Positions 9,462 to 27,788 of a DNA stretch of 37,278 nt are shown piece by piece. This DNA comes from Helicobacter sp. GTDB taxonomy: Bacteria; Campylobacterota; Campylobacteria; Campylobacterales; Helicobacteraceae. The position numbers and the translations under genes were made by a program. The stretch lies in assembly GCA_029264775.1 (NCBI GenBank), contig JARHYT010000097.1:1-37278 (forward strand), in the 5' to 3' direction. The notes under the pieces are model-generated. The model was not told where the DNA came from, made no database searches, and worked only from the letters and a program-made list of their open reading frames with translations. Every line of letters begins with the position of its first letter. Within the stretch, counting starts at the first letter, position 1.

Positions 9462-9481
9462 ATAATGCTATTTGCATTATA
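9462..9481 (-). promoter_or_regulatory. Hairpin and overlapping TATAAT at the end of nuoN
   Basis: Bases 9462-9480 form a perfect 7-bp inverted repeat (ATAATGC, 5-nt loop, GCATTAT) that includes the nuoN stop codon. On the minus strand TGC-TATAAT (9476-9481) overlaps it and lies about 32 nt before the flavin-reductase start. It could be an operon-end hairpin, a promoter for the next unit, or both; no T-run supports a terminator. Confidence 0.35.
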
Positions 9482-10940
9482 GCAAAACATTAAACAAAGA
9501 TATGTGATAATCAAGTAGATAGGAAACTAAGAAAATAGAAGCAATGCAAAGCAATGCACAAATTAATATAATACATTTAATAGGAGAGGTGATATTGTCT
9601 TCATAGTATTCCTCATCACCTGCTATTGGTTGCTTAAAATACATAGCAACAATAAGCTTTAAGTAATAGCAAACCGCAATAGCACTGCTTAACACCATTA
9701 CAATAGCAAGTGCTATTTCATCTTTTTGCAATGCCTGTGTAATGATAAATATCTTACCCCAAAAGATGGAAAATGGTGGAATACCCGCAAGTGACAACAT
9801 AAATAAAGCGGCGGTTAAAGATTTTATGGGGTATTTTTTTGAAAAGCCATAAAATTTTTCAAAAGAATAATCATATCTTGATGAAAAATTCTTTGGCTTA
9901 CTAGCCCAAAGTAGAGCAAAAGCACCCAAATTTGTAACAAGAAACAATATCCAATATATAGATAAAATACCAAAATTACCTAGATAAATACAAGCAAGTG
10001 CAAACCCAGAATGAGATATAGAACTAAATGCAAGCATCCTTTTTACATCCTTTTGTAATAAGGCTACTATATTAGGTAACAAAATAGTTATAAACAAAAG
10101 GATTTTTAATAGCTTTTCAATATAATTATTTGGAGCAAAACCACTAGAAACAAACAAAAATATAGTAGTAAATACCGCAAAACCAGCAATTTTTGGGACT
10201 ATAGAAATATAGCCGGCTAACACAGGATTGCAAGCTTCATAAACATCGGGCATCCAACTATGCCATGGAACTAATGATATTTTAAAACCAATACCAGCAA
10301 CAATAAATATAAAACCAAATACCATAAGCATCATATAGACATTTTGTTGTGGTGCTAATATATCATGATACAAAGCGGTATTGTTTAAATCAAAACCACC
10401 AGTGCGTAAATAAATAAGCAATATCCCAAGTATAAAAAATATACTAGCTAATGCACTTGCAGTAAAATACTTAATGCTCGCCTCAAGACCATAGATTCTA
10501 CGATTAAAAGACATAAGAGCAGCTAAAGGCAAACTTCCTATTTCCAAACCCAACAAAATTAAAATAAGATTATTAGAATTAACCATTAACATAAAACCAG
10601 ATACAGAAAATAAATACAATGGATAAAATTCAGGCGTTTGAAATTCTACAAATTTATGCTTTGAAAAAGTAAGAAACACAAAGAAAAATGAGGCGGTTAA
10701 TATAATATATTCTGATATTAAAGTGATATTTGATACATTAGAGGAATGCCCTAAACTCAAACAAAACAAAAATGCTGAAGCAATAAAAATCATGCTCAAA
10801 GATAGACTAGTATTGCGTGAAAAACGACTTGCAAAAGCATTGCTAAAAAGCACAACAATTGCCCCTAACACTAGAATGAAAGAGGGCATATAAAGATACA
10901 TATATAAATATAAATCAACACTAAATTCCATATTATTCAT
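9477..10940 (-). CDS. nuoN: NADH-quinone oxidoreductase subunit N
   Basis: This is one of the three antiporter-like membrane subunits of complex I, part of the proton-pumping arm. The 487-residue product is hydrophobic throughout and would make about 14 helices. Family motifs are visible: GLEIGSLPLAALMSF (the helix-5 glutamate region) and IGFKISLVPWHSWMPDVYEA (conserved Lys and HxWxPDxYE). Further on are KDVKRMLAFSSISHSGFAL and the late AGIPPFSIFWGKIFI. The ATG at 10938-10940 has AGGAG 6 nt upstream. It is the last gene of the operon, 27 nt after nuoM. Confidence 0.96.
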   Translation of the reverse strand: MNNMEFSVDLYLYMYLYMPSFILVLGAIVVLFSNAFASRFSRNTSLSLSMIFIASAFLFCLSLGHSSNVSNITLISEYIILTASFFFVFLTFSKHKFVEFQTPEFYPLYLFSVSGFMLMVNSNNLILILLGLEIGSLPLAALMSFNRRIYGLEASIKYFTASALASIFFILGILLIYLRTGGFDLNNTALYHDILAPQQNVYMMLMVFGFIFIVAGIGFKISLVPWHSWMPDVYEACNPVLAGYISIVPKIAGFAVFTTIFLFVSSGFAPNNYIEKLLKILLFITILLPNIVALLQKDVKRMLAFSSISHSGFALACIYLGNFGILSIYWILFLVTNLGAFALLWASKPKNFSSRYDYSFEKFYGFSKKYPIKSLTAALFMLSLAGIPPFSIFWGKIFIITQALQKDEIALAIVMVLSSAIAVCYYLKLIVAMYFKQPIAGDEEYYEDNITSPIKCIILICALLCIASIFLVSYLLDYHISLFNVLL

Positions 10941-10967: not shown

Positions 10968-12548
10968 CTAATCTTCTAAATCTATTATTGTTTCTTCCAT
11001 ATAAAATGGAAGTCTTGAAATCAAATTTCCATTGACATTTAGCAAATGTTTTTTTGTATCTTGCTCTTGTGAATTTGCATACATCTTGCCTACTAGCTGC
11101 TGAACTGAAACTTGCATTGATTTTAAAATAGTATTTGGAAATACCCCAAGCCAAACAATAACTACTGCAATTGGCAAAATAACACAATATTCCTTAAAAT
11201 ATAAATCCTTCAAATTTTTGTATAAAGCCATATTTCTTATTGAATCCCCATAAAAAATATTCTTAAACAAATATAACATGTAACTAGCAGAAATGATTAA
11301 AGTTGTTCCAGCTAATGCAGTTATAATGGGCGAAGTTTGAAAATAACCATAAAGCGATAAAAACTCACCAACAAAACCTATAGTTAAAGGTAACCCTACA
11401 TTTGACAGCATAACAAGAGCAAAGAAAAAAGAATAATGTGGCATAACTTCAGCAATACCACCAAAATCATTAATATGCCTTGTAGATGTGCGATAATAAA
11501 GCATACCAGCCAAAAGGAATAATGCCCCGCTTGTAACACCATGTGCAACCATCATAAAAATTGCACCGCCAATACCTTCTCCATTAAAGCTAAAAACCCC
11601 TAGCACAACTATACCCATATGTGAGATTGAACTATATGCAATAACTTTTTTAATATCTTTTTGCTTAAATGCAATAATGCCTGCATATATAACCATAATA
11701 GTTGCTAGAACGCTTATTATAGGCATAAAATGGACACTAGCATCAGGAAATAAAGGTAAAGCGAAACGCAATAAAGCATAGGTACCCATTTTAGAAAGCA
11801 ATGCGGATAACATAACACTTCCTAATGCAGGTGCTTCACTATAAATATGTGGCAACCAAGTATGTAACGGAATAATAGGTATTTTCACAGCTATAGAGAT
11901 AAAAAAGCCCAAGAAAAGCCATATTTGCAATTCAATTGGAATCTGTAAAGCACCGCTAGACCAGATACTTAAATCAAAATTAAAATTACCTAATTGTTGG
12001 TAACATAAATACCCAACATAAAGTATAGATACAAGCATCAAAAGGCTAGAAGCAAATGTATAAACAAAAAATTTCAAACCAATATATATTTTCTGACCAC
12101 TTCCCCAAACGCCAACCATATATAACACAGGTAGAAGAGCTAACTCCCAACAAACATAAAATAAAAGAACATTTTGAGATGCAAATAACGCCATTAATAT
12201 GCCTTCCAATGAAAGCAAACAAACTACAAATGGTTTTGCATCATCTCTTCTTTGCAAATAAATATTAGCAATAACCATAATGAAAGCGGTTAGAACAATA
12301 AGAAACAATGAAATGCCATCAACTGATACAAAATAATCGATACCTAGCTGAGGTATTAAGAAAACCTTTGTAGAAAATTGCACATCAGAAGTATCAATAC
12401 GATAACTTATCCACAATACAACAACTAAAATAAGCTCAATAAATGAGATAATGCGACCAAATCTCTTAGCACCACCATCATCAAACATAAATATAAATAG
12501 ACATGCAACAAGGGGGCAAACAATAATTAAACTCAATAGATATTCCAC
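10968..12548 (-). CDS. nuoM: NADH-quinone oxidoreductase subunit M
   Basis: This is the second antiporter-like subunit of the complex I membrane arm, 526 residues, within the family range. The motifs are WELALLPVLYMVGVWG (the conserved glutamate on helix 5), KIPIIPLHTWLPHIYSEAP (functional Lys and His) and KDIKKVIAYSSISHMGIVV. Further on is NVGLPLTIGFVGEFL. The start is GTG (12546-12548) with AAGGAG 5-6 nt upstream. The C-terminal ~60 residues are a hydrophilic tail. The gap to nuoL is 16 nt. Confidence 0.96.
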   Translation of the reverse strand: MEYLLSLIIVCPLVACLFIFMFDDGGAKRFGRIISFIELILVVVLWISYRIDTSDVQFSTKVFLIPQLGIDYFVSVDGISLFLIVLTAFIMVIANIYLQRRDDAKPFVVCLLSLEGILMALFASQNVLLFYVCWELALLPVLYMVGVWGSGQKIYIGLKFFVYTFASSLLMLVSILYVGYLCYQQLGNFNFDLSIWSSGALQIPIELQIWLFLGFFISIAVKIPIIPLHTWLPHIYSEAPALGSVMLSALLSKMGTYALLRFALPLFPDASVHFMPIISVLATIMVIYAGIIAFKQKDIKKVIAYSSISHMGIVVLGVFSFNGEGIGGAIFMMVAHGVTSGALFLLAGMLYYRTSTRHINDFGGIAEVMPHYSFFFALVMLSNVGLPLTIGFVGEFLSLYGYFQTSPIITALAGTTLIISASYMLYLFKNIFYGDSIRNMALYKNLKDLYFKEYCVILPIAVVIVWLGVFPNTILKSMQVSVQQLVGKMYANSQEQDTKKHLLNVNGNLISRLPFYMEETIIDLED

Positions 12549-12564: not shown

Positions 12565-14439
12565 TCAATAAATTATAAAATATGCCAAGGTTACAAATAA
12601 AATGATAGCAACGCCAGCACTCATAAGTCTTAACATACTACTTAAATTACCATTTTGTATTGGCTTTAATATATAGCTTAAAAACACGAAAAATTTAGCC
12701 ACACCATCTACAATTTTATCTAATATCCCCATATCAATTATATGATAGAGAAACTCTGACAAAAACGAGAAAGGTTTAACAAAGAAGATTCTATATAAAT
12801 GTGGTATATAGTACTCATTCGCTAAAATCTTATATAAGATATTTTGCCTTTTTTCTTTATATCCATTTTTATACATGAAATATGCAAGTATTATGGACAA
12901 TATCACAACACTTAGAGTTATCACAATGAGTAGCATAGCATTGTCTAAGTGAATATTGGCAGGAATTAATACAGATGATAAGAAAATATCAAAATTTACA
13001 TAAAATAACCCGGCAACAACAGCTAAAAATGCTAATGGACTCATTGCATAAATCATAACCTTACTTGCTTCATGCGGATGCTCACTATGATTTTTTGGTG
13101 CTATAAATACAAGCATAAATAATCTAAAGCTATAAAATGCAGTACAAACTGCACCAATTAGTAAAACAGCCCATATACTATAAGAGCCATTAGCATAAGC
13201 AACTTCTAAAATCTTATCTTTGGAGAAAAACCCAGACAATGGAGGAATACCACACAATGCAACAGAGCCAATTAACATAAATATCATACTAACTCTTAAT
13301 GGTTTAGATAGTCCCCCCATCTTTGTTATATCTAGTTTATCATTCATGGCATGCATTACATTTCCAGCACCCAAAAATAAAAGTGATTTAAAAAATGCGT
13401 GTGTAAATAAATGAAATAATGCAATAATATAAGCCCCAAGCCCAGCAGCAACAAACATATAACCTAGCTGAGATAATGTAGAATAAGCAATAATCCGCTT
13501 TAAATCCTTATTAACGATTGCCATTAATGATGCAAAAATTGCCACAAATGCACCCAAACAAGCAATAAAGCCTGAAACTAAAGGCACACTGCTATACAAA
13601 GGTGAAAGACGAATAACAAGATATACTCCAGCAGTTACCATTGTGGCTGCGTGTATCAAAGCCGAAACCGGAGTTGGTCCCTCCATTGCATTTGCAAGCC
13701 ATGTATGCAATGGAAATTGTGCAGACTTACCCATAGCACCTATGAATAGCAAAGCTGCTATCCATGTAAGTATAGAATCTTGAGGTGGAGTTGATGCTAA
13801 TTGTAGGAAAATATCGCTATAAGACAAAGAACCCAAACTAATATATACCAAGAAGATTCCAAGCAACATACCCAAATCAGCAATTCTATTCATAACAAAG
13901 GCTTCAATTGATGCAGAATTAGCACTCTTTTTCTTATACCAAAAACCAATAAGCAAGTAAGAACAAGTTCCAACGCCTTCCCAGCCAATAAATAAAATTA
14001 AAAGATTATCGCCTCCAACTAGCAAAAGCATAGAAAACACAAACGCACCAAGATATGCAAAGAATCTATTAAATCCCATATCATGTTTCATATATCCAAT
14101 AGAATAAAAATGCACCATACTAGATACTAGCGTAACAACAAAAATCATAATCGCATTGATATGATCAAACATAATCGAGAATGTAACATTAAATTGTGCA
14201 ATGCTTATAAAATCCCACAAAACAATATGAAAACTAGAACCACCGCTAATAAGGTAGTAAAACAATAGCAAGGAGGATAAAAAACTTATACTAATACATA
14301 TAGAGCAAAAATATCCAAGCATAATAGAAGGCTTTAGAGTCGCACTAAAACCAGCAATAATACTTGATAGAACAGGTAAAAACACAGTGATAATAAGCAA
14401 GGTAGTCTTATAGTCTGCTATTAAATCAAAATAACTCAT
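12565..14439 (-). CDS. nuoL: NADH-quinone oxidoreductase subunit L
   Basis: This is the distal antiporter-like subunit of complex I, 624 residues, the usual length. It carries GWEGVGTCSYLLIGFWY, then the family signature AQFPLHTWLANAMEGPTPVS and ALIHAATMVTAGVYLVIR. It continues with KDLKRIIAYSTLSQLGYMF and ALCGIPPLSGFFSKDKIL. The C-terminal part matches the long lateral helix followed by a last transmembrane segment. The start ATG lies 1 nt after the nuoK stop, with GAGGGG as ribosome-binding site. Confidence 0.97.
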   Translation of the reverse strand: MSYFDLIADYKTTLLIITVFLPVLSSIIAGFSATLKPSIMLGYFCSICISISFLSSLLLFYYLISGGSSFHIVLWDFISIAQFNVTFSIMFDHINAIMIFVVTLVSSMVHFYSIGYMKHDMGFNRFFAYLGAFVFSMLLLVGGDNLLILFIGWEGVGTCSYLLIGFWYKKKSANSASIEAFVMNRIADLGMLLGIFLVYISLGSLSYSDIFLQLASTPPQDSILTWIAALLFIGAMGKSAQFPLHTWLANAMEGPTPVSALIHAATMVTAGVYLVIRLSPLYSSVPLVSGFIACLGAFVAIFASLMAIVNKDLKRIIAYSTLSQLGYMFVAAGLGAYIIALFHLFTHAFFKSLLFLGAGNVMHAMNDKLDITKMGGLSKPLRVSMIFMLIGSVALCGIPPLSGFFSKDKILEVAYANGSYSIWAVLLIGAVCTAFYSFRLFMLVFIAPKNHSEHPHEASKVMIYAMSPLAFLAVVAGLFYVNFDIFLSSVLIPANIHLDNAMLLIVITLSVVILSIILAYFMYKNGYKEKRQNILYKILANEYYIPHLYRIFFVKPFSFLSEFLYHIIDMGILDKIVDGVAKFFVFLSYILKPIQNGNLSSMLRLMSAGVAIILFVTLAYFIIY

Positions 14440-14440
14440 A

Positions 14441-14743
14441 CTAACCCCTCATATTACTAAGTTTATCTATATCAAGTATTTTATATTTTTTATACAACAT
14501 TAAAACTAATCCCAAACCTATGGCAACTTCAGCAGCAGCTAATGCAATAATAAATAAAGCCATAATTTGCCCCTCTAGATCTCCTTTATAATAACCTATA
14601 GCAATAAAGGCAACATTCATGGCATTTAACATGATTTCTGTTGAAAACAATAAAAGTAATATATTTTTTCGTCTTAAGATTCCATACAAGCCTATACAAA
14701 ACATAATAGCACTAAATATGAGATAATGATTAAGCGTAATCAT
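14441..14743 (-). CDS. nuoK: NADH-quinone oxidoreductase subunit K
   Basis: This is a 100-residue, three-helix membrane subunit of complex I. Helix 2 carries the conserved glutamate (LLLLFSTEIMLNAMNVAF) and helix 3 the second one (ALAAAEVAIGLGLVLML); both take part in the proton path in studied enzymes. It overlaps the nuoJ stop by 4 nt (ATGA). Confidence 0.97.
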   Translation of the reverse strand: MITLNHYLIFSAIMFCIGLYGILRRKNILLLLFSTEIMLNAMNVAFIAIGYYKGDLEGQIMALFIIALAAAEVAIGLGLVLMLYKKYKILDIDKLSNMRG

Positions 14744-15315
14744 TGTATTTCCTTTCTTGGTAAATCATTAGTTTTTGATACTTCACAATTAGAATCTTCA
14801 TTTGAAAACTCCGGTTTGTGTGCACCAGAGCCAATACCTGCTATCATTGCCATAAGCAACATAATAGCCGCTGCTTCAAAACATATCAAATATTCATTAA
14901 ATAAAATATGTGCTAATTTATTTGTACTTAAATCTGATTGTGCTATGTCCAACGCATCATAAATGCCCACAAATCCAGATGGCTTTACAACGCCCACAAC
15001 AATAAGCAATGACAAGGCAAATACGCTAACAATTAACCAAACGATAAATTGATTCTGAAACTTTTCCTTAACTTCCTTGCTTAAGTCAAAAAACATCATA
15101 CCAAAGGCATACATAACAACAACTGCACCAGTATAAACAATAATTTGCACAACACCCAAGAAATCTGCATGTAATAAGAAGAAAAATCCAGAAACTAGAA
15201 TCATGCCAAAAGCTAATGCACTGAGGGCATACAAAATATTGTTTGTCATAACAACAATCAAAAATGCACAAAGTGTCAAAGCAGCAAAAGTATAAAACGC
15301 TATTAACTCAAACAT
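14740..15315 (-). CDS. nuoJ: NADH-quinone oxidoreductase subunit J
   Basis: This is a membrane subunit of complex I, 191 residues. It has five hydrophobic segments, including FGMILVSGFFFLLHADFLGV and VQIIVYTGAVVVMYAFGMMF; the latter holds the pi-bulge helix known in the family. A Lys/Glu-rich stretch (DLSKEVKEKFQNQF) follows. The C-terminal ~35 residues are polar (GAHKPEFSNEDSNCEVSK), a modest tail. The ribosome-binding site AGGAGG precedes the ATG, and the gene overlaps nuoK by 4 nt. Confidence 0.95.
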   Translation of the reverse strand: MFELIAFYTFAALTLCAFLIVVMTNNILYALSALAFGMILVSGFFFLLHADFLGVVQIIVYTGAVVVMYAFGMMFFDLSKEVKEKFQNQFIVWLIVSVFALSLLIVVGVVKPSGFVGIYDALDIAQSDLSTNKLAHILFNEYLICFEAAAIMLLMAMIAGIGSGAHKPEFSNEDSNCEVSKTNDLPRKEIQ

Positions 15316-15338: not shown

Positions 15339-15956
15339 TCAATAATCTAGCGGAGTTTGCTTAACTTCTTTATCCGCACTAGGACGCACAGAACCAAATC
15401 CTTCAAACTCAAGTTGATTATGTATTTTTGCTTCTTCTAAATCTTTCAAGAAATCTTCTTTTAATCCGAAATGTGCTCTTTGCTCACTCGCATTTTCAAA
15501 CCTATTTCCCATTACAATGGCAAGCTCAGGACATACTTCGGCACACAAACCACAATATATACACCTGCCTAAATTAATTGTATAAGAATCTATTTTTTTT
15601 CTACCATCTTCACCTTCATGAGTTAAGATTCTAATGCAATTGCTAGTGCATATCTTTTCACACAGACCACAACCAATGCACCTTTCATTTCCAGATTCAA
15701 GCATTCTTTGTAGATTATGAACAGCTCTATATCTAGGGCTTAAGGGCTGTGCCTCAAAAGGATAATTAATAGTAACAGGTTTGCTAAAAAATTCCTTAAT
15801 AGTCAAACCCAAACCCTTAACAATATCACTTCCTAAACTTAAACTAACACTTCTTTTAAAACTATCAAAAGTAGTTTGCGGAAGTTTCTTTGTAGAAATA
15901 AAATAGTAATCTTGCTCTTCTTTAGAGTGTTCTTGTTTTTTTTCTATTTCTTCCAT
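15339..15956 (-). CDS. nuoI: NADH-quinone oxidoreductase subunit I
   Basis: This subunit carries the two [4Fe-4S] clusters N6a and N6b that pass electrons toward NuoB. Two full motifs are present: [16 protein letters not shown] and [16 protein letters not shown]. They are followed by the family stretch [21 protein letters not shown] chose ATG 15954-15956, with AAGGAG 5 nt upstream; a start at 15983 would overlap nuoH and lacks a site. The N-terminal ~45 residues and the C-terminal ~40 residues are extensions typical of relatives. The protein is 205 residues. Confidence 0.96.
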
Positions 15957-15966
15957 GCTATCTCCT

Positions 15967-16956
15967 TTATGGTAATAATACAATACCAGTAATTAAAATA
16001 TTAATCAATCCAAGCGGTACAAGCACTTTCCAACACATATTCATGAGTTGATCGGGGCGAATATGGGGTAAAGTAGCCCTAACCCACATAAATAAAAATA
16101 TAAAGAAACATACTTTTAAAATAATAGCAATACCTCCGGGTATAAATCCTATAGGATTGAATCCCCCCAAGAATATAAGGCTTACAACAAATCCAAATGC
16201 AAACATATGTGCATATTCAGCAATAAAAAACATGCCCCATTTTAATCCGCTATACTCTGTGCAGTAACCAGCAACAAGCTCTGCTTCATGCTCCAATAAA
16301 TCAAATGGTGTCCTATTAAGTTCAGCATAACTTGCAATAAGAAATAAAATAAATGCCAAAGGTTGCTTAAAAATTAGCCAGTTCAATACACTTCCACCTT
16401 GATAGTCATTCATAGTAACCAAAGATAAAGATCCAACAATCATAATAGGTGCAAGTATAGAAAGCCCACTAACAATCTCAAAGCTTAAAACTTGAATGCA
16501 AGCCCTAGCCCCACCTATTAAACTCCATTTGTTGCCACTACTAAGCCCGGCTAAAAGAGGTGCGTAAATACCAACAGCACCAACAGAGATAAAGAATAAT
16601 AAACCTACATTAATATCAGAAATAATTGGCGTTACTTTATATCCAAAAATCTCAAAATCAGGAAAAAATGGTATTGCAACCATAGAGGTCATGGCACTAA
16701 CTAAGGCAACTACAGGAGCTAAAGTAAAAATTAGTTTATTTGCACCTTTTGGGATAACATCCTCTTTTGTAAAAAGTTTAATTGCGTCTGCACCAAATTG
16801 TAATAATCCAAAAGGTCCTACATAAATTGGTCCAAGCCTTCGTTGAAAAAACCCTAAAACTTTTCTCTCAATATAGGTAGCAAAACCACCTAAAAATGAA
16901 AAAACAAGCAAAACAACTATCACTTTAATCAAAGTTTCAATTATAAAAGCACTCAT
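15967..16956 (-). CDS. nuoH: NADH-quinone oxidoreductase subunit H
   Basis: NuoH is the eight-helix membrane subunit that forms the quinone chamber with NuoB and NuoD. The 329-residue length is normal. Visible landmarks are [20 protein letters not shown] at the N-terminus, [20 protein letters not shown], and [20 protein letters not shown] followed by GYCTEYSG. Near the C-terminus is [20 protein letters not shown]. All conserved acidic residues of the first quinone-site loops appear present. The start overlaps the stop of the second nuoG by 4 nt. Confidence 0.97.
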
Positions 16957-19637
16957 GCCATATTCCTTTCTACCTCATCATTCATATTACATTTTGAAAT
17001 CTGCAAATATGAAGTAAAACCATTTTCAAATAAATTATAAACACCATCGATTAGAGGTGATACCAACAATATGGAATCTTTTAAATCAACATCACAATAT
17101 ATGTGTGAATAAATACTTGAACTATCATTGCTAAGACATACCAAATCGCCGTCTTTCAAACTATTTTTATCTAAAAATTCTGAGCTAGTATATATGCCAC
17201 TTTTTGATTGCATATTATTACTAGAAAGCGTTGTATGATTAAAATGATTCTGCGTTTCTAAAAGTATTGCATTAAAATTTATATCATCTTTAAAACGCAA
17301 AGAAAATTTAAAGTTTAAAATATCGTCTTTAGTGGATTGCAAAAACTTAAGAAAATATCCACGAACATCTCTACCATCTTTAGTATAAGATGCTATTAAA
17401 TCCCTATGCTCTATCTTTTTGTAAAATGGACTATATTCACACAAAATACCAGTTAAATCACCTATATATTCAACATATTGCATATTATCATCAAATACGC
17501 TCAATTCTTTAGCAATATCATTCAAATCAAGGGCAGATTCTAAGCTAGAATCCAAATATGGTATATTAGGATTAAGAGGCAATAAACGCATCTCCATATT
17601 TGTAATGCTTCCTTCACTTTGTGCCAATGTTGGCAATGGAAAATTTGGTTTGATTGTATCTAAGTTAGAATCAAGAACAAAATCACCATTAGAGCGAATA
17701 CCTATAGTGTAATTTTGAACTTTTTCTTTATTATCCCATGTTAGATTACATATGCTAGAAACACCCATTACATTAGCACCTTTTGGTACAAAAAGAAGTT
17801 TTAATTGTAATTTCTGACATATAAAGGATAAGAGATGTGCAAGAATTTGTAGTTTGTTTTCATTATCCATAAATTCTTGTTGCATTGTTTCTGTTATATT
17901 CTCCATAATTGTAGTTGCTACTGCTTCTGTAATATTTGGAGGATTTGATTCTGTGTGATAGGATTGTAAGCCATATCCATCATAATTTGTAAAATCATGA
18001 GATAAAAATTCATCAAACACAAATTGCGAAATAATTAATACTCCATTCTTATTTACCTTTAATGAATCTAAATTATCAATATTAAGATTTCTTGTAATTA
18101 TATCTATGTTATATGGACTTAGATTATCAACCTTTTCCTCTTGATTTTCTTGAACATCTACTTTTTCTTGTGTATCTTGTGCATTATCTAATTGTTCCTT
18201 ATTGCTAGTGCCTTTTAAAAACATTTTTAGACTATTAGGGAAACATTCTTCAAAATCATCTATTAAATCATTCGCAAATACTAAAGCAAGTATTCCAGAG
18301 AGTGCCACACTACTAGATTTGCAATTTATTTGCATAACATTTTTACTAAGAGATTCTAATAAAGAATCATGAAATAACCCTATGCTTAATACTTGTGAGC
18401 TTTTTTGTATCTTTAGGTTATTATTAATTTTGTATCTTACGCTAGGAGAATCATACTTAAAATAAGTATTCAATGCAACAAACGAATTACTAGCTTTAAA
18501 ATCTGCAAATGTGGCAAAAAAATGAGAAAATGATAATTTCCTATCTTGTTGTGCTACTTCATCATAAAACCTACTTTTATAATATATAGACGCATTTAAA
18601 AAACTTTCACGAAAGCTAGAAAAACATTTTGCCTCATGATTAAATAATGGTATATTAAACTTTTTAGAGATTAAATTTGCAAGCAATGCCTCCTCATTGC
18701 TCACATCACTACCTACATTAATAGAATCTGCCTTTTTAAACGCATTTAAAGCAGATTCTATATTTCTTGTGCCAATGGATACCATATCAAATGCAAACCT
18801 ACCAGCACCACAAATAGGATTATAAAGGTAATCATTTTGAACGCGATAAACTTTTTGCAAATCTCCCTTAACATCTAAATGTTTTACATTATATATTAAC
18901 TCGCAACCACCGGCACAATAACCACAAGTAGAATGAATTTTTTCTAATTCCCAAGCATTACTTGTATATGTAAAATCCTTGTAAGTCATAGCCCCAACGG
19001 GACAAACAGATATACATTCTCCGCAGTCCTTACATTCATTTTTACCAACAAACTCAATCAATCCTTTTTGTCTTTTTGACCACACTGAATAAGGATCTTT
19101 TCCCATAGAATCTTTATAATTATCAGGAGTAAAAAGCTTTGCCTTACCGGCTTTTAGATTTGCTTCACCTATATTATCCTTGCATGTAGTAACACATCTT
19201 TCACACATAATGCAAAGTGCTGGATCATAAAAGCTCTGCGCAAAACTAAATGATTTTTTATCTGCTTCTTGCAAACCAAATAGCTGTAAATCTACCTTTG
19301 TATGAAGTGTAAAATCTTGCAATTCACATTCGCCACTTTTATCACATACACCACATTCTAGGGGATGATTTACACAATATGTAGTCATTATTTCTTTTCT
19401 ATCATTTAATATTTCTTCAGTAGCAATCAATACTTCCATGCCATCTTTTACTTTAGCATTGCAACTATAAACGCGTTTGCCAGATACCTCAACCATACAC
19501 ATCTTACATGCCACAGTGGGGCTACAACCACTCAAAAAACAAATCGTTGGAATCTGTATATTATTCCTCCTTGCTACCTCAAGGATTGTTTCGCCCTCAA
19601 ATGCCTCAAATTCCATTCCTTCAATTTTTATTTTCAT
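16953..19637 (-). CDS. nuoG: NADH-quinone oxidoreductase subunit G, second copy
   Basis: This is the iron-sulfur subunit of the complex I peripheral arm, 894 residues, and the second of two tandem nuoG genes. The N-terminal 2Fe-2S ferredoxin domain has C33, C44, C47 and C59. The His-Cys cluster motif is HPLECGVCDKSGECELQD. Then come CIMCERCVTTC and CKDCGECISVCPVGAM (two 4Fe-4S ferredoxin-type sets), and an N7-type set CGYCAGGC with a distal NPICGAGR. The remaining ~600 residues correspond to the molybdopterin-oxidoreductase-like domain but are strongly diverged. They include a Gln/Glu/Asp-rich insert near residue 480. It starts 3 nt after the first nuoG and overlaps nuoH by 4 nt. Keeping every cluster ligand argues it is functional. 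Confidence 0.92.
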   Translation of the reverse strand: MKIKIEGMEFEAFEGETILEVARRNNIQIPTICFLSGCSPTVACKMCMVEVSGKRVYSCNAKVKDGMEVLIATEEILNDRKEIMTTYCVNHPLECGVCDKSGECELQDFTLHTKVDLQLFGLQEADKKSFSFAQSFYDPALCIMCERCVTTCKDNIGEANLKAGKAKLFTPDNYKDSMGKDPYSVWSKRQKGLIEFVGKNECKDCGECISVCPVGAMTYKDFTYTSNAWELEKIHSTCGYCAGGCELIYNVKHLDVKGDLQKVYRVQNDYLYNPICGAGRFAFDMVSIGTRNIESALNAFKKADSINVGSDVSNEEALLANLISKKFNIPLFNHEAKCFSSFRESFLNASIYYKSRFYDEVAQQDRKLSFSHFFATFADFKASNSFVALNTYFKYDSPSVRYKINNNLKIQKSSQVLSIGLFHDSLLESLSKNVMQINCKSSSVALSGILALVFANDLIDDFEECFPNSLKMFLKGTSNKEQLDNAQDTQEKVDVQENQEEKVDNLSPYNIDIITRNLNIDNLDSLKVNKNGVLIISQFVFDEFLSHDFTNYDGYGLQSYHTESNPPNITEAVATTIMENITETMQQEFMDNENKLQILAHLLSFICQKLQLKLLFVPKGANVMGVSSICNLTWDNKEKVQNYTIGIRSNGDFVLDSNLDTIKPNFPLPTLAQSEGSITNMEMRLLPLNPNIPYLDSSLESALDLNDIAKELSVFDDNMQYVEYIGDLTGILCEYSPFYKKIEHRDLIASYTKDGRDVRGYFLKFLQSTKDDILNFKFSLRFKDDINFNAILLETQNHFNHTTLSSNNMQSKSGIYTSSEFLDKNSLKDGDLVCLSNDSSSIYSHIYCDVDLKDSILLVSPLIDGVYNLFENGFTSYLQISKCNMNDEVERNMA
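19314..19372 (-). repeat. 59-bp tract shared with the first nuoG copy (58/59 identical)
   Basis: This segment, encoding the His-Cys cluster region, matches 21744-21802 with a single mismatch (19332 versus 21762). Flanking sequence of the two genes is much more diverged. It is read here as a gene-conversion or strongly constrained tract. Confidence 0.85.
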
Positions 19638-19640
19638 GAA

Positions 19641-22082
19641 CTAAGCCTTTAATCTTTTATAATCAAAGTATTTTTGTGTATCTATAACTGAATCGCTAAC
19701 AAGAACTGCAACCATACCCTTCAGAAATGAAGTCAAAACAACCTTTAATCTAAGAGCATACCTCCCAACTTGCAATGTAACTATGTCATTATCTTGCAAT
19801 CTAGTAGCTATGCAAAATTGATTTGATACTTTAATTATCCCATGCGACACATCATCTTTATAGTACTCGTTACTATAAAAACTCAAATTTCCGCTAATAG
19901 ATGCTTTATAGATAAAAATACCACTGCCTTCTATAAATTCTATTTCAGGGTAAGGTATATAATCCCTAGTTTCAACAAAACCAAAATCCCTATTGCAACA
20001 TACCTTTGAATCTAAGTCATCAAATGCAGTATCAATAAGATTTACCATAGTATAACAATTTTTGTCGTTTGATTCTAATACAAATGGTAATTTCCTTGTA
20101 AGATCAACAATATATTCCTCTGTAAGACCTAAATATTCACCGCAAATATCAAGCAAATCAATATTTGGACTATTATAGCTTAAGCCTTGAGTTAAATTAC
20201 TATTAATACCGCCAAAACCATCATCCACATAACTTGGATGAAGTTTCGTCAATCTATAATTTATATCTATTACGCTACCCTCCATAAATTGCAATGGCAA
20301 TATATAGCAATGTTTTTGTGAGTTACAATCTTTGCTACTAGAATCATCAGAATCTGTTGGCATAGCAAAAGGGGCATATGGAGCAACGCTTATACTATAT
20401 TCAGCATTACATCTAATGCCAAGAACAGATTTAAACTCCATATTATCATAATCTAAATTACATATTGCTTGAATGCCATTTATATTATGGTATGCAAGTG
20501 GCACAATAGAAACATTACAAAGATTTGTTAAACAACCAAATATCTGTGCAATTATATGATAATGTGGAGACAAATAAAAATCCTGCCCTATTAAAATGCA
20601 AACATTGCTTTTGTTGTCTTGAGTACTATGATCTGGCTTAACTATTGAATATGTTTGCAAACATAGTGTTTTTAAATATTGTAATTCATGCCCACTAACA
20701 TTGCTTTCTGCTATCACATTTCCTAAGTCAAGAGATTGTAGCCAAGCTATTACATCAGAAATATGTTTCTTTGATTCTGCATTAACAACACTAAGAGATT
20801 TTACTAAATCATCTGAGAATATATTCAGCAATAGTGCTGATATACCCAATTCTGTGCCAACTTCATATTTTAATGACAAATCACTTTTAAATCTTTCTTC
20901 TGCAATGGTGCTTATCCATATGTTTTTACTTCCTTTTTTTAAGGAATTTTTTGATAAATTACTCCTTAATATAGGCATTTCATCATATAGATAGCTCCCA
21001 AGCACAATTACAATATTATTTTGCATATCTATTACGCGATCAATGTCTGGTGCTTGCTTTATATTAGCAATATTGCAAAATTCCCTATATAAAAATGCCT
21101 CATTACAATACAATTTCTTATTAGACTTCTCTGCAAGCATATTTGCAATATATGCTTCCTCATTTGTAACATTTGGGCTAATTCTTATAGCATCTATTTT
21201 GTCTAAAATACTAGATATATTAAATACTTTTTTATTAGAATATTCATTGCACATATTAAGAAATGTTGGGCTAAATGGATTCTGCCTCATAAAATTATGT
21301 CTTCCAGCGTGGCAAAGTTGATTTATATGTGCCTTATTCTTAATCCTATACACTTCCTTTTTGGAATCTATATTATGTTTTACCTCATATTCTAATTCAC
21401 ATCGCAAAGAACAATGCAAGCAATAAGATTCACTTTTTTCTAACTCCCACGCATTACTAGTATATGTAAAACGAGATGAAAACATCGCCCCTGTTGGACA
21501 TACGCTTACACATTCATCACAATCTTCACAATAAGCATCAAAATTAACACCTATTTTTGAATGAAAGCCACCAGAAAGAACCTTCAAAACATTATTACCA
21601 ACAAATTCATTGCATGTTCTAGCGCATCTTTCGCACATTATACACAAACTCTCGTTATATACCTTATTGTGAAAACTTACATAATCATTTTGTTTTTGAA
21701 TAGCAAAAAATGGTTGAATATCGACTTTAGATTCTAATACTTTATCTTGCAATTCACATTCACCACTTTTATCACATACACCACATTCTAGGGGATGATT
21801 TATGCAAAGAAAACTCATAATCTGATTTCTATATCGTTGCAATCTAGGCGTGTTGGTATAGAATCTAGCACTATTATTAACTATGCTTTTACAGCTTGCA
21901 ATAACATTGCCATCCTCTTCTTCTACCACACACATACGACATGCACCAGTTGGAATAAGTTTTTTTAAATCGCAAAGAGTTGGTATATTAATACCATTGT
22001 CTCTTGCAACATTAAGAAGTGTTTCACCTTTTTTTGCTTTGCATTCCTTATCATTTATAAATATCTTTATATCAGAACTCAT
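19641..22082 (-). CDS. nuoG: NADH-quinone oxidoreductase subunit G, first copy
   Basis: This is the first of two tandem NuoG paralogues, 813 residues. The 2Fe-2S domain has C37, C48, C51 and C64 (LCDLKKLIPTGACRMC ... ASC). The His-Cys motif HPLECGVCDKSGECELQD is the same as in the second copy. The 4Fe-4S sets CIMCERCARTC and CEDCDECVSVCPTGAM follow, and an N7-type set YCLHCSLRC with distal LCHAGRH. Beyond about residue 280 the molybdopterin-like domain has no recognisable cofactor site and is low in similarity to the second copy. Both copies share FTYTSNAWELEK. The start overlaps the upstream fusion gene by 4 nt. Two complete nuoG genes in one operon may mean two subunits in one complex or alternative complexes; the sequence cannot tell. 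Confidence 0.92.
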   Translation of the reverse strand: MSSDIKIFINDKECKAKKGETLLNVARDNGINIPTLCDLKKLIPTGACRMCVVEEEDGNVIASCKSIVNNSARFYTNTPRLQRYRNQIMSFLCINHPLECGVCDKSGECELQDKVLESKVDIQPFFAIQKQNDYVSFHNKVYNESLCIMCERCARTCNEFVGNNVLKVLSGGFHSKIGVNFDAYCEDCDECVSVCPTGAMFSSRFTYTSNAWELEKSESYCLHCSLRCELEYEVKHNIDSKKEVYRIKNKAHINQLCHAGRHNFMRQNPFSPTFLNMCNEYSNKKVFNISSILDKIDAIRISPNVTNEEAYIANMLAEKSNKKLYCNEAFLYREFCNIANIKQAPDIDRVIDMQNNIVIVLGSYLYDEMPILRSNLSKNSLKKGSKNIWISTIAEERFKSDLSLKYEVGTELGISALLLNIFSDDLVKSLSVVNAESKKHISDVIAWLQSLDLGNVIAESNVSGHELQYLKTLCLQTYSIVKPDHSTQDNKSNVCILIGQDFYLSPHYHIIAQIFGCLTNLCNVSIVPLAYHNINGIQAICNLDYDNMEFKSVLGIRCNAEYSISVAPYAPFAMPTDSDDSSSKDCNSQKHCYILPLQFMEGSVIDINYRLTKLHPSYVDDGFGGINSNLTQGLSYNSPNIDLLDICGEYLGLTEEYIVDLTRKLPFVLESNDKNCYTMVNLIDTAFDDLDSKVCCNRDFGFVETRDYIPYPEIEFIEGSGIFIYKASISGNLSFYSNEYYKDDVSHGIIKVSNQFCIATRLQDNDIVTLQVGRYALRLKVVLTSFLKGMVAVLVSDSVIDTQKYFDYKRLKA
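21744..21802 (-). repeat. 59-bp tract shared with the second nuoG copy
   Basis: This is the partner of 19314-19372; only base 21762 differs. It encodes the cluster-binding HPLECGVCDKSGECELQD region. Confidence 0.85.
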
Positions 22083-24508
22083 AGCCTACCTCTAACGCTT
22101 TGGTTATCTTTTTTTGCTCCGACAACGCACATACTGATATAATAGCAACGCATGCACCTTTGTGCCTCGCTAATTGCATCACCTCTGCTTAGACCTAGAT
22201 TGACCTCTTCAAAGTTTTTCGCTCGATATTGAGGTTGCAATTTATCGCTAATCTCCCTTTTATTACCCGATATAAACCCCTTGACCTCACGATTTTTATC
22301 AAAAACACCAATTTGTTTTAATAAATCTTCCATTCTCTCATCATCATTAATCTCTACCTCATTTGTTTGTAAGTAGTTTGCTATCACATTCGCAACTCTC
22401 CTTCCATGTCCTACCGCATTTACGATAGTTAAAGGACCACTAACACAATCGCCTGCTGCAAAGATTCCTTTTTTTGTTGTAGAAAAACTTGCATTATCTA
22501 CTTCAATCGTTTTCCACTTACTTATACCAACTCCAAATTCAGGATCTAAATCAAAATCCATCTCTTGACTAACTGCTGGGATAAGTATATCGCATGGCAA
22601 AATTACACCACCATCATCTATTAGCTTTAACTCTCCTTTAGGATTTGTTTCACTTTTTATCAATTCGTAGCGATTTATTCTCAATGATTTTATTTTAGAA
22701 TCTTCTTGCAAAATTTCATCTACTGCACTCAAGAACTGAAATTCAACACCTTCTTCACATGCTTCATGATATTCTTCGCTTGAAGTATTCTTAATAATAG
22801 TAGCTTCATCTCTACGATACAGCATAATAACACTTTTTGCACCTAAACGCACACAACAACGAACAACATCCATAGAGGTAAAACCACCACCAACACATAC
22901 AATGTTCTTGCCCTCTAAATTTGGTAACTCACCTATATTAAATTTTTGTGCAAGATTTACGCAATCCATAAATTTTATAGCGGGTAGATAACCTTGCAAT
23001 TCCACATTTTCATTTTTGCAACCAAGCCTCTTGCTAGCCCTAGTGCCGACAGCTATAACAAGGGCTGAATGCTTTTTCTCTAAATCTAATATATTTTTAG
23101 AATCTACCATAAAATTAGTATGAAAAATAACACCCAATTCCTTCAAAGATTCTATATCATGATTATATTCTATAATAGGCATACGATAATTTGGAACGCC
23201 TACTGCAACTTCACCGCCAAGCACAGGCAAAGCCTCATAAACCTCAACCTTAATCCCTCTTAATGCCATATAATAAGCACTACTAAGACCAGCTGGACCA
23301 GCACCTATAACACCAACGGAAGGAAAACTTTCAAATTCTTTTTGTGCTTTTATATTGTTGGGGTTTGCATAACCATGCCACCTGCCTGTTTGTTTTTCTA
23401 TAAATTCTGCATTAGCCCCTATTCTTTTTAACTCCATAATGCTTATAGGTTCATCTAATATTGCCCTACGACAAGCATTCTCACAAGGATGAGGGCACAC
23501 TCTACCGCATACTTGTGCTAATGGCATGCTACTTCTAGTGCTACTCAAAGAATCTAAATATCTCATATCCTTAACACCTTCAATATACGCAGGAATATCA
23601 ACTCTTGAAGGACATTCATCTGTGCAGGGTGCGGTAATCTTTGATATGTACTCTACATTATCTATAATTGTTGTAATAGCACTTTTGTATCTTTCTAATG
23701 GCTCAAAAACATTATTTTGATTAGGATTACTAAGTGTTAAATTATGCCTATTAATACCATAATCAATGCTCATAAGTGTAGTGTGCATTTCTCCATCTTT
23801 ACTATTACTTATATGCCCTACATTATTTACAAGATTCTTTTTAGCATCTAAAATACTATCTTTTAAATCTTGCTTTGCTTTATCTTCTTGTATTTCTTTT
23901 ATCTTTTGTCTAACTTCTTGCATTAATTCTTTAGAATTGATACCATGTGATATACTATCACGAACTCTACCCGCAAATTCTTTCGCTTCTTGTAATTTTC
24001 TCGCACTATCTCTTAACGCATTAGATAGATTATCAATATCATTTGAATCATTTACCGAAAGTTTTGGCAAGACTCTAGCAAATACTTCTGGGTTTGATTG
24101 CAAAACCTGCAAGATCGGTTTTGGTGTTGTTTTGCCTACTTCACATTTTGAAGTAGAAATCATTAAATCACACACCTCTTTAAGTTTTTCTATATCCTCT
24201 AACACATCATCATTGTTTAAATAATTATAGTTTTGAATCTTTTCTAAAAGCTCATACAAAACCTTTCCCCCATACTTACCCGGTGTGCATCTACCACAGG
24301 ATTGCGAATAATTTTGATATTGTTTAGCATATATTTTAAGTGTTTGCAAAATATCTACATCTTTATCAAATATAACAATACCATCCCAACCGACGAATGC
24401 TTTAATTTCATGTATAACAGGCTCTTTCGTAAAAAATGTAACTTGAGGTAAAACATTTGGAAAATTATCTATACTATAAGGTATTTTTGGATTTGTTTTT
24501 CTTACCAT
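22079..24508 (-). CDS. NuoF C-terminal remnant fused to a GltD-like FAD/NAD(P)H oxidoreductase
   Basis: This is an 809-residue fusion in the nuoF position. Residues 1-150 resemble only the C-terminal cluster domain of NuoF: SCGRCTPGKYGG with C71 and C74, and a later C122. The third cysteine of the usual C-x2-C-x2-C set is Gly77, and the NADH/FMN domain is missing. Residues 160-230 are a charged helical linker. From about 290 on it is GltD-like, with CTDECP (295, 299) and CGRVCPHPCENAC (334, 338, 342, 346) for 4Fe-4S clusters. The FAD fold is GVIGAGPAGLSSAYY (402-407) and the NAD(P)H fold CVGGGFTSMD (540-547) followed by YRR. GIFAAGDCVSGPLTIVNAVG closes the FAD domain, and a C-terminal RCMRCYYISMC may bind another cluster. 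I chose ATG 24506-24508, with AAGGGG 6 nt upstream, over the TTG at 24526. By family, GltD oxidises NADPH, so this could feed electrons into complex I; that is inference. Confidence 0.9.
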   Translation of the reverse strand: MVRKTNPKIPYSIDNFPNVLPQVTFFTKEPVIHEIKAFVGWDGIVIFDKDVDILQTLKIYAKQYQNYSQSCGRCTPGKYGGKVLYELLEKIQNYNYLNNDDVLEDIEKLKEVCDLMISTSKCEVGKTTPKPILQVLQSNPEVFARVLPKLSVNDSNDIDNLSNALRDSARKLQEAKEFAGRVRDSISHGINSKELMQEVRQKIKEIQEDKAKQDLKDSILDAKKNLVNNVGHISNSKDGEMHTTLMSIDYGINRHNLTLSNPNQNNVFEPLERYKSAITTIIDNVEYISKITAPCTDECPSRVDIPAYIEGVKDMRYLDSLSSTRSSMPLAQVCGRVCPHPCENACRRAILDEPISIMELKRIGANAEFIEKQTGRWHGYANPNNIKAQKEFESFPSVGVIGAGPAGLSSAYYMALRGIKVEVYEALPVLGGEVAVGVPNYRMPIIEYNHDIESLKELGVIFHTNFMVDSKNILDLEKKHSALVIAVGTRASKRLGCKNENVELQGYLPAIKFMDCVNLAQKFNIGELPNLEGKNIVCVGGGFTSMDVVRCCVRLGAKSVIMLYRRDEATIIKNTSSEEYHEACEEGVEFQFLSAVDEILQEDSKIKSLRINRYELIKSETNPKGELKLIDDGGVILPCDILIPAVSQEMDFDLDPEFGVGISKWKTIEVDNASFSTTKKGIFAAGDCVSGPLTIVNAVGHGRRVANVIANYLQTNEVEINDDERMEDLLKQIGVFDKNREVKGFISGNKREISDKLQPQYRAKNFEEVNLGLSRGDAISEAQRCMRCYYISMCVVGAKKDNQSVRGRL

Positions 24509-24533: not shown

Positions 24534-24761
24534 TTATTTCTTTTTCACAACAATAGTCCAATCTACATGATTAAACTGCAAAGAATTCATAAGTGTATGT
24601 CCTCTTTCTTTAATATAGTTAGCACTCTTTGCTACATTCTCATGCTCACCTTTCTCAAACAAAAATATAGCAATTTCACCGCTTGAAAGATGGGTGTCAA
24701 GTAATTCTCCCATCTTATCGTAAAAATCACTTTTTAAATGCCTCAAGTCAAACCTTTTCAT
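24534..24761 (-). CDS. Small NuoE-position complex I protein (HP1264 type)
   Basis: This is a 75-residue soluble protein in the place where nuoE normally lies. It resembles, from memory, the short proteins H. pylori HP1264 and C. jejuni Cj1575c: MKRFDLRHLKSDFYDKM at the start, FLFEKGEHENVAKSANYI in the middle and FNHVDWTIVVKKK at the end. It contains no cysteine at all, so it cannot carry the N1a 2Fe-2S cluster of real NuoE. In C. jejuni the corresponding pair is reported to let complex I use flavodoxin rather than NADH. It lies 50 nt after nuoD and 25 nt before the fusion gene. A docking role is inference. Confidence 0.85.
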   Translation of the reverse strand: MKRFDLRHLKSDFYDKMGELLDTHLSSGEIAIFLFEKGEHENVAKSANYIKERGHTLMNSLQFNHVDWTIVVKKK

Positions 24762-24811: not shown

Positions 24812-26041
24812 TTATCTATCTATCTCTCCCAAAATAATATTACTATTACCAATCATGGTAATAATATCTGCCAAATAATGCCCGGGCATCATAGCAGTCA
24901 TGCCTTGCAAATGATAAAAACTAGGGGCTTTAACCTTAACTCTATGTGGATATGGATTTCCCAAAGAACTAATAAAAAAGCCTAATTCACCTTTTGGTGA
25001 TTCAGTAGGAGCATATACTTCACCTTTTGGTGGTCTCATACCTTGAGTTACAAGCACAAAATGTTGCATCAAGGCATAATTTTGCGTCATAACATCCTCT
25101 TTCGGGGCAGAAATATAAGATGGTGCATGAGCCATCAATTGCGTAGAAGTCCCTTTATATATTTCCATTGCTTGTCTAATAATGTTGCATGACTGGAATA
25201 CTTCTTCTGTGTAAAGCACATATCGCCCGTAACAATCGCCACTATCTGTATAAGGAACGCTAAAGTCTAACTCATCATAAATTTCATATGGCTCTTCTTT
25301 ACGAATATCATACTGCACGCCAGAACCACGCAACATAATGCCACTCAATCCATAATCTTGTGCAACCTCTTTACTAATAACGCCAACACCCTCAAGTCTC
25401 ATACGCCAAATTCTATTTTTATCCAAAAGCCCCTTGATAAGATTTGTTGTTTCAATCACTTCTTTTAAGCAATTATCCATATTATCAAACCAATTATTAG
25501 GAATATCAAGAGGCACACCACCTATACGAATAGAATTATGAGTGAGTCTTGCCCCACAATAATCCTCAATCATATCTAATATATACTCCCTACCTTTAAA
25601 AGCATATAAAAACACACTCATAGCACCAACATCAAGAGCATGGGTTGCCATGAAAAGTAGGTGCGAAGCCAAACGATTTAATTCTAAAAGTATTGTTCTT
25701 ATAACCTTGGCTCTCCTTGGGACTTCAACACCAAGCAATGTTTCAACACCATAAGCAAAAGCATGATTATTGCTACTTGCAGCAGTATAATCCATACGAT
25801 CAGTAGTTGGCATAAACTCATTGTAAATCATATTTTCAGCAAGCTTTTCTACGCCTCTATGTAAATATCCTATATCAGAAACGGCACGAGTAACTTTTTC
25901 TCCATCTAATTCCAAAATAAGTCTCAATTGTCCGTGTGCACTTGGATGCTGCGGTCCTAGATTAACAATCATTTTATTGTCATCTTGTTCAAAAATAACA
26001 TTTTCAAATTGAGTTTGAAGTTTATTGAAATATTGTGCCAC
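24812..26041 (-). CDS. nuoD: NADH-quinone oxidoreductase subunit D
   Basis: NuoD is the 49-kDa-type subunit that lines the quinone-binding pocket with NuoB. Motifs include [20 protein letters not shown] near the N-terminus, with the HGxLR loop at the quinone head-group. They continue with [26 protein letters not shown], and [19 protein letters not shown]. The C-terminal end is [14 protein letters not shown], matching the family end. It has 409 residues. The start is GTG at 26039-26041 with GAGG 6 nt upstream, just after the nuoC stop. NuoC and NuoD are separate genes here, unlike the E. coli fusion. Confidence 0.97.
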
Positions 26042-26049
26042 TTAACACC

Positions 26050-26856
26050 TCACAATCTTTTATCAAGCACTTTTGGTGCTGAATTAGGAAATCTTTGTAA
26101 AATAGGTGGCTTATTTGCCTCTTGATAAGTAATTTCATGTACTTCTTCACTAGGTTTTTCTCCCCTTGAAACTTCTTTACCAATCCTTGCAAAATTTATA
26201 CTATCGCTCCTATCCACTCTAGCGCTATCCCTTTGTTCTGGACCTATAATATCCCTGTATTCCCTGCCAAAAATTTTATCGACTTCATACCACGAAGCAA
26301 ACTCATCACCCTTTAATGGATAAGATTTCAAAAGTGGAAAACCAACCCAATCAATTGGCATTAAAATTCTCTTTAAAAATGGATGATTCTCAAATTTAAT
26401 ACCAAACATATCATAACATTCCCTCTCACTCCAGTTAGCACACGCAAAGATATTGCTAACAGATGGCATAGAATCATGCTCATTAATCTTACACTTCACT
26501 CGCAATCTACGACGATTCTTATATGACTTATTATGTGAAGTAAGCTGATAAAACAATTCAAAAGTACCATCAATAGCTAGATTGTCAATGGCACTCATCT
26601 CTGACATAATATTATAACCTAAAGACTTAAGTGTCTCTAATGCTAAAGGAACAGAATTTTTCCTAACAACAAATACCGCCTGTCCTATCTCAACATAACT
26701 TGAAATTATTTCTAACTTCTGTTTTAACGCATCCTCAACAATACGAAATTCACTATCTGATACAGAAATTCTAGGCGTAAGAATTGGTTGATAGAATCTA
26801 TCCGTATGATAAACCTTCTTTTGAACATCTTTTTTTTGTTGTTTCTTCCTTATCAT
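26050..26856 (-). CDS. nuoC: NADH-quinone oxidoreductase subunit C
   Basis: This is the 30-kDa-type subunit of the peripheral arm, 268 residues. The diagnostic stretches are NIFACANWSERECYDMFGIK and HPFLKRILMPIDWVGFPLLK, followed by YPLKGDE. The N-terminal ~20 residues are a Lys/Gln-rich extension. The C-terminal ~70 residues are a polar tail found in related ε-group proteins. The ATG has AAGGA 6 nt upstream. The gap to nuoB is 48 nt. Confidence 0.95.
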   Translation of the reverse strand: MIRKKQQKKDVQKKVYHTDRFYQPILTPRISVSDSEFRIVEDALKQKLEIISSYVEIGQAVFVVRKNSVPLALETLKSLGYNIMSEMSAIDNLAIDGTFELFYQLTSHNKSYKNRRRLRVKCKINEHDSMPSVSNIFACANWSERECYDMFGIKFENHPFLKRILMPIDWVGFPLLKSYPLKGDEFASWYEVDKIFGREYRDIIGPEQRDSARVDRSDSINFARIGKEVSRGEKPSEEVHEITYQEANKPPILQRFPNSAPKVLDKRL

Positions 26857-26904: not shown

Positions 26905-27408
26905 TTAAACTAGTCGCTTTATATTGCGTTCTGGCAGTGCTTTTTGCGAACGAATCTTTTGCTGTAAAACCATCATAGCATATTGTAATGTCTCTGGACG
27001 GGGAGCACAACCGGGCAAATAAATATCAACAGGTATAATCCTATCTACACCTTGAACTGTTGCATATGTATTAAACATGCCCCCAGTATTAGCACAACTG
27101 CCCATAGAAACAACCCATTTTGGTTCTGGCATTTGATCATAAAGCCTACGAGTAAATTCTGCGTGCTTTTTTGTCAAAGTACCAGCAATAATCATTACAT
27201 CACTCTGTCTTGGGCTAGCACGAAATATAATACCAAATCTATCAAAATCAAACCTAGAACCACCAGTAGCCATCATCTCAATGGCACAACATGCAAGACC
27301 ATAGGTAAGAGGCCAAAGAGAGTTACTTCTACCCCAATTCAAAATTTTATCAATAGTTCCTAATGCAACAGGCATTCCACTAGCACTCAAATCTACTTGT
27401 CCTGCCAT
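26905..27408 (-). CDS. nuoB: NADH-quinone oxidoreductase subunit B
   Basis: NuoB holds cluster N2, the last electron carrier before quinone. The tandem cysteines are in [20 protein letters not shown]; the other ligands are in [12 protein letters not shown] and LPGCAPRPE. Length is 167 residues. I chose ATG 27406-27408; the longer TTG-started frame (27429) reads further back into nuoA. Even so it overlaps the nuoA end by 16 nt, so the two are translationally coupled. Confidence 0.97.
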
Positions 27409-27788
27409 GATAATGCACCTCTCTTCCAAGCAAATAAAAAGCCAATAACAAGTAAGCCTATGAAAGCAAACATTTCAAAAAAACCCAATAAACCTAAATT
27501 GCGATATTCCAAAGCCCATGGTATCATGAATATAACTTCCACATCAAAAAGAACAAACAAAACAGCTATAATGTAAAATTGATGGGAAATTCTATTTGGT
27601 TGTTTAATGGGTATAGGACCACACTCATAAGGGGCAGTCTTCAACTTGTCTCCCCTTTTGTTCGCCAACTTTCTTGATACAAACCTTTGCAACCAGAAAG
27701 TAGCCCAGAATGCAATCAAAGTCAAAGCAAACATAACAAATGCACCAAAATATGGATGTTGCACCATTGGTTCTAAAACATCAATCAT
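27393..27788 (-). CDS. nuoA: NADH-quinone oxidoreductase subunit A
   Basis: This is the first gene of the nuo operon: a 131-residue, three-helix membrane subunit. It shows [20 protein letters not shown], the family signature with the conserved loop cysteine near the quinone cavity, and [20 protein letters not shown] with the conserved acidic helix. The ATG at 27786-27788 has AGGA upstream. Several TATAAT boxes lie in the 415-nt upstream gap. Confidence 0.97.

Follow-up and report, generated by a model that had tools for sequence, protein, structure and literature searches.

What stands in the place of nuoF in the complex I operon of a Helicobacter species, and with which electron carrier would such an enzyme exchange electrons? 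The window, by which we mean the whole 37,278-nucleotide stretch of DNA that was analysed, carries genes in the order nuoABCD-X-fusion-G1-G2-HIJKLMN, and an earlier note, made from the sequence alone, had read the gene in the nuoF position as a NuoF remnant joined to a complete GltD-like module (Table 1). The minus-strand interval 22079-24508 is indeed a single open reading frame without an internal stop, which gives 809 amino acids when translated from its ATG and 815 from an alternative upstream TTG start. A Pfam search of the protein returned PF10589 (NADH_4Fe-4S) at residues 68-142 with an E value of 4e-14, above the cut-off, followed by Fer4_20 at 292-367 and Pyr_redox_2 at 398-702. With NCBIfam models, the match of the N-terminus is confined to positions 302-400 of the 410 in the NuoF model, and the remainder matches GltD-like NADPH proteins, the best being PRK12771 (1e-103). 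Both halves of the earlier reading are therefore borne out by profile search, as is the loss of the NADH/FMN domain, since Complex1_51K was not found in the fusion by Pfam. Neither that domain nor the NuoE thioredoxin-like [2Fe-2S] domain was detected in the fusion or its 75-residue neighbour, which sets the operon apart from a canonical NADH-dependent complex I.

Table 1. Coordinates of the nuo genes in the window and of the parts of the fusion protein
Feature	Position	Strand	Remarks
nuoA	27393..27788	(-)	
nuoB	26905..27429	(-)	
nuoC	26050..26856	(-)	
nuoD	24812..26041	(-)	
nuoX	24534..24761	(-)	75 aa, PF16514; relative of FMN-binding HP1264 (2lxr)
Fusion gene	22079..24508	(-)	nuoF position, 809 aa; NuoF cluster-domain remnant, linker and StnC-type GltD module
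NuoF remnant, residues 1-145	24074..24508	(-)	C71, C74, Gly77, C122; PF10589 at 68-142
Linker, residues 146-285	23654..24073	(-)	Variable; low pLDDT in model
GltD-type module, residues 286-716	22361..23653	(-)	Fer4_20 and two Rossmann folds
Permuted RCxxC segment, residues 755-793	22130..22246	(-)	C785, C788 invariant
GltD-module Fe-S cysteines			C295, C299, C334, C338, C342, C346; also K361
GltD-module nucleotide sites			FAD GAGPAG 402, R442, NADP(H) GGGFTS 540, YRR 564-566
nuoG1	19641..22082	(-)	813 aa; all Fe-S cysteines kept; present only with the fusion
nuoG2	16953..19637	(-)	894 aa; counterpart of single NuoG in fusion-less relatives
nuoH	15967..16956	(-)	
nuoI	15339..15983	(-)	
nuoJ	14740-15315	(-)	Recognisable sequence and order
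nuoK	14441-14743	(-)	Recognisable sequence and order
nuoL	12565-14439	(-)	Recognisable sequence and order
nuoM	10968-12548	(-)	Recognisable sequence and order
nuoN	9477-10940	(-)	Recognisable sequence and order

An AlphaFold2 model of the fusion has a mean pLDDT of 79 and a pTM of 0.78, and its Fe-S region is modestly confident, with block-mean pLDDT values of 58-77 over residues 301-370. The long form of the linker is found solely in the genus of the window and near relatives; in the H. bilis group it brings the proteins to as many as 962 amino acids. Elsewhere the fusions are about 640-690 amino acids long, and in most other families the linker is almost absent.

The surroundings of the fusion are those of an epsilon-type complex I, in that the nuoABCD-nuoX-...-nuoG-nuoHIJKLMN order is present and the 75-residue partner singled out by the earlier note matches PF16514 (NuoX/HP1264). 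The known examples of this type, from C. jejuni (Cj1575/Cj1574) and H. pylori (HP1264/HP1265), share with the window the nuoABCD-X-...-G-HI order, NuoX and the absence of an NADH/FMN NuoF. They differ in possessing NuoY, which has been described from both species as the replacement of NuoF, and in lacking the fusion and the Fe-S half of NuoG1; in the window, the fusion and a full NuoG1 stand where NuoY would be expected.

The fusion is not a local oddity but is spread over most Campylobacterota families, so that the scope of the earlier note proved too narrow. A match over the GltD module at 49% identity or more was found in about 126 of the 397 genomes of the class, mostly in frames of about 640-970 residues. 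All of the best 80 named GTDB loci are from Campylobacterota and 76 of them have a full usable fusion, with hosts that include Helicobacter bilis, muridarum, trogontum and aurati as well as Sulfurimonas, Sulfurovum, Nitratiruptor, Hydrogenimonas and Thiovulum. With search patterns that are specific to the family, no fusion from outside Campylobacterota was seen among these 80 loci or in plasmid records, where the GltD part alone was matched. An alignment of 70 homologues shows invariance in 70/70 at C71, C74, G77, C122, C295, C299, C334, C338, C342 and C346, and likewise at K361, R442, F543, the YRR at 564-566, C785 and C788.

This alignment bears directly on the altered cluster site in the NuoF remnant. 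The fusion shares with canonical NuoF (51 kDa) the C-terminal helical domain of the N3 cluster, which is still recognised as PF10589, and differs from it in lacking the FMN/NADH part and in one ligand, because the canonical CxxCxxC plus distal Cys has Gly in place of the third Cys in 70/70 homologues. The earlier note had pointed to this replacement at Gly77, with C71, C74 and C122 retained, and it was right to do so. Since Gly77 is invariant it is a family signature, and decay of the site was rejected as an explanation. With one ligand fewer, the potential of an N3-type cluster at this site, or its presence altogether, is uncertain.

The nearest solved structures to the GltD module, by sequence and by the fold of the model, are StnC and the A subunits of NfnABC, ahead of NfnB, DPD and GltD. 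Like NfnB/NfnL (4ylf, 5jca) and GltD, the fusion has the common fold, Fer4_20, two Rossmann folds with FAD and NADP(H) sites, and two sets of [4Fe-4S] ligands. It parts from NfnB and GltD at two points, at both of which alignment to 8oh5_C, 9bov_A and 9n5u_A places it with StnC. At the first, K361 aligns with K170 of StnC, an essential residue and a ligand of the FAD-proximal cluster, in contrast to the Glu of NfnB; R442 in turn aligns with R239 of StnC and matches R201 of NfnB. At the second, the first CxxC pair that is N-terminal in NfnB and GltD is missing ahead of C295, and a segment at 755-790 with the motif RCMRC aligns both to the N-termini of NfnB (4ylf_B, 5jca_L) and to the end of the GltD domain of StnC. 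Most likely, therefore, C785 and C788, although C-terminal, stand in for the missing pair, an arrangement shared with the StnC class. The C-terminal Cys motif of the earlier note is thus real; an extra C-terminal cluster, which it might have signified, was judged unlikely because the alignment fits a permuted ligand pair of the distal GltD cluster. StnC, like the fusion, is reported to keep only five of the eight Fe-S ligands common to SfrB, SudA and GltD.

As for the nucleotide, the YRR that the earlier note had placed after the second Rossmann motif is present, and NADPH appears likelier than NADH, as that note had proposed, because the YRR is invariant and the closest solved relatives (StnC, NfnB and DPD) bind NADPH. 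Two residues in the NADP(H) motif depart from the usual and might influence function: F543, which follows the GGG, is an invariant Phe where relatives have Asn or Asp, and residue 545 is Ser where relatives carry Ala.

In order to place the fusion among the complex I operons of its relatives, nuo regions were taken from 67 genomes, their genes were typed with profiles, and the window was added. The arrangement X-fusion-G1 is found in 38 clusters including the window, with G2 next in line on every contig that extends so far, and the place and order of the fusion within the operon are constant in 38/38. A second arrangement, X-NuoY-G2, accounts for 28 clusters, and among the 66 clusters there were no mixed cases; two further genomes of the survey have NuoX alone. 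NuoX is thus kept in both architectures. In all 28 fusion-less clusters, what is left of NuoG1 is a cluster-free C-terminal remnant, which lies beside NuoG2. The fusion thus behaves as one unit with the Fe-S part of NuoG1, the two being gained or lost together.

Two genomes from the genus of the window (G245 and G274) lack both the fusion and NuoG1 and keep NuoD, NuoX and NuoG2. Their nuo operon is scattered (L171 3425-3652, L172 6576-6821, L244, L245), such that NuoX stands alone, NuoD or NuoA-D lies elsewhere and NuoG2 is on another contig. Other departures from the usual gene structure were a NuoG2 split into frames of 309 and 537 amino acids beside an intact fusion (L202, genome G167), reflecting either a frameshift or a true split, and NuoX and NuoY joined in one open frame of 351 amino acids (L190 4211-5266). 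Besides an epsilon-type complex I, genomes G007, G117, G134, G203, G210, G292 and G394 encode an extra protein of about 535-558 amino acids with a NuoF cluster domain.

The remnant in the fusion-less clusters is NuoY itself. Compared with profiles by hhalign, NuoY matches NuoG1 at an E value of 8e-57 over NuoG1 profile positions 348-777 and NuoG2 at 2e-19, as against 0.067 for the NuoF remnant. Judged by these profiles, NuoY (HP1265/Cj1574 type) is the C-terminal half of NuoG1, the part without clusters, and the same comparison rules out that it is an unfused NuoF remnant or substitute. When NuoY and the C-terminal halves of NuoG1 are placed in one tree, the majority of NuoY proteins lie beside the NuoG1 of their own family. 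A single origin of NuoY was rejected (AU p 0.0024), with at least five changes on a tree that has some long branches, and a tree of NuoB, C, D and H requires six changes and likewise rejects a single clade of fusion-less genomes. Because NuoY is not one clade, joint loss of the fusion and of the Fe-S half of NuoG1 has apparently happened repeatedly. The direction is taken to be loss because NuoY is a truncated remnant; the change counts themselves give no direction, the phylum-wide search covered the order of the window, and the root is not fixed.

In NuoG1 and NuoG2 alike, the cysteines for one [2Fe-2S] and four [4Fe-4S] sites are retained almost without exception, and of the NuoG sequences from fusion-less genomes just 36% have the full set of four at the N7-type site. 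By count, as many as about 16 clusters could lie in series between NADP(H) and quinone. In the alignment of NuoG1, NuoG2 and fusion-less NuoG, Cys38 is conserved in NuoG2 and never found in NuoG1.

Operon position and its joint loss with NuoG1 mark the fusion, indirectly, as a putative part of complex I, and the reading that we favour, and hold to be probable though by no means secure, is that the fusion and NuoG1 form one linear and reversible NADP(H) input/output arm of a menaquinone-linked enzyme. In this arm, NADPH would bind the second Rossmann fold and reduce FAD, from which electrons would leave singly by way of the FAD-proximal [4Fe-4S] cluster, held by C299, C338, C342 and probably K361. 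They would then pass to the distal [4Fe-4S] cluster (C295, C346 and probably the permuted C785/C788), to the N3-type site in the NuoF remnant, altered in that it has C71, C74 and C122 and no third Cys, and onward through NuoG1, NuoG2, NuoI and NuoB to menaquinone, along a linear path with no bifurcation. Run in one direction it would let heterotrophs oxidise NADPH; run in the other, chemolithoautotrophs would make NADPH at the expense of proton motive force. Of 80 genomes, all but one lack the proton-translocating transhydrogenase PntB (79 of 80), and an energy-linked NADP+ reductase would therefore fill a real gap.

The closest precedent is StnC of the Sporomusa-type StnABC (8oh5), together with NfnABC (9bov, 9n5u), in which a GltD module is likewise joined to Nuo-type Fe-S domains, the FAD-proximal cluster has a Lys, the RCxxC follows the Rossmann folds and the path is linear from NADPH through FAD to the clusters. 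StnC differs in that it includes NuoG and FdhF-like parts of its own and passes its electrons to a NuoF-like FMN bifurcating module; in the fusion, the GltD module is joined to a NuoF remnant, NuoG1 is separate, the FMN module is gone and the gene lies in the operon of a proton-pumping complex I.

Could electrons instead enter elsewhere? Reduced ferredoxin or flavodoxin might come in at NuoX or at one of the NuoG subunits, with the GltD module as an NADPH-making side exit, which would make the enzyme a three-way switch between ferredoxin, NADP and menaquinone. The C. jejuni complex uses flavodoxin, according to the account in PMC6682613 of Weerakoon and Olson (2008), NuoX, a relative of the FMN-binding HP1264, is retained in both architectures, and the genome of the window encodes a long-chain flavodoxin. 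We nonetheless regard this switch as unlikely. Long-chain flavodoxin is present in 22 of the fusion-bearing genomes and missing from 16 of the 38, and hence is not the general donor; as an obligate partner of the fusion complex, the form in which we considered the flavodoxin exchange raised by the earlier note, it is improbable. The raw count of absences (16/38 fusion-bearing against 2/28 fusion-less genomes, Fisher p 0.002) would suggest that flavodoxin absence goes with the fusion, and this correlate was dropped because phylogeny-aware pairing is not significant; the flavodoxin association thus fails phylogenetic control. We also rejected the idea that the fusion replaces the flavodoxin:NADP reductase FqrB, as FqrB-like genes, the presumed FqrB having been identified by its place near flavodoxin in genome G045, are nearly universal in both groups.

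A further reading, which we think has little chance of being correct, is that the fusion and NuoG1 make up a separate soluble NADPH dehydrogenase that is merely co-transcribed with complex I. A free NADPH oxidoreductase that pairs GltD-type and NuoG-like proteins exists in SfrAB of Geobacter, compared here by description and not described within a nuo operon, and genomes that have lost the fusion and NuoG1 may still have NuoA-D, NuoX and NuoG2. Against this, operon place and order are identical in 38/38 clusters, and retention of the NuoG1 C-terminal half beside NuoG2 in 28/28 fusion-less clusters fits a structural role within the complex. Bifurcation or confurcation at the GltD FAD between NADP(H), ferredoxin and the quinone path, which the earlier note had raised and for which the NfnB-like fold, the shared Arg and the two clusters near FAD could be cited, is very improbable, given that the proximal ligand position is Lys in 70/70 as in StnC, whose FAD is reported to be non-bifurcating and which oxidises NADPH, and not the Glu of bifurcating NfnB, that no NfnA-like subunit was found in the operon, that an NfnA-like or StnB-like FMN partner is missing, and that the FMN domain of NuoF is gone.

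Returning to the linear NADP(H) arm, a broader scheme can be put forward tentatively, and we would not stake much on its every part: the enzyme may be a proton-pumping NADPH (NADP+):menaquinone oxidoreductase with an StnC-type arm and two NuoG in series, ancestral to most Campylobacterota, which by reverse electron flow in chemolithoautotrophs replaces the missing proton-linked transhydrogenase, and which has been taken apart on at least five occasions, so that the flavodoxin-driven enzymes of the Campylobacter and H. pylori groups would be its reduced derivatives.

Epsilon-type complex I without NuoEF was already known, and GltD modules were known to occur fused to Nuo parts or in partnership with them (StnC, SfrAB). 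In the literature open to reading, largely without subscription papers such as those on the Sulfurimonas denitrificans and Wolinella genomes, we found no account of the fusion in complex I, its wide distribution, its tie to a second NuoG or the origin of NuoY. The donor of Campylobacterota complex I has so far been deduced mainly from C. jejuni, which uses flavodoxin. According to the results reported here, the C. jejuni and H. pylori groups possess a stripped-down enzyme, and members from vents and sediments, along with many from the gut, carry a different and larger input arm pointing to NADP(H). The view of NuoY as a substitute for NuoF is corrected as well. A NuoF substitute built from an Fe-S remnant and an NADPH module suggests that in many Campylobacterota the respiratory chain exchanges electrons with NADPH and not with NADH. 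If the arm works in this way, it would explain how NADPH is connected with the quinone pool and with proton motive force where PntAB is lacking, and would offer a testable case of the same electron-input module being lost repeatedly.
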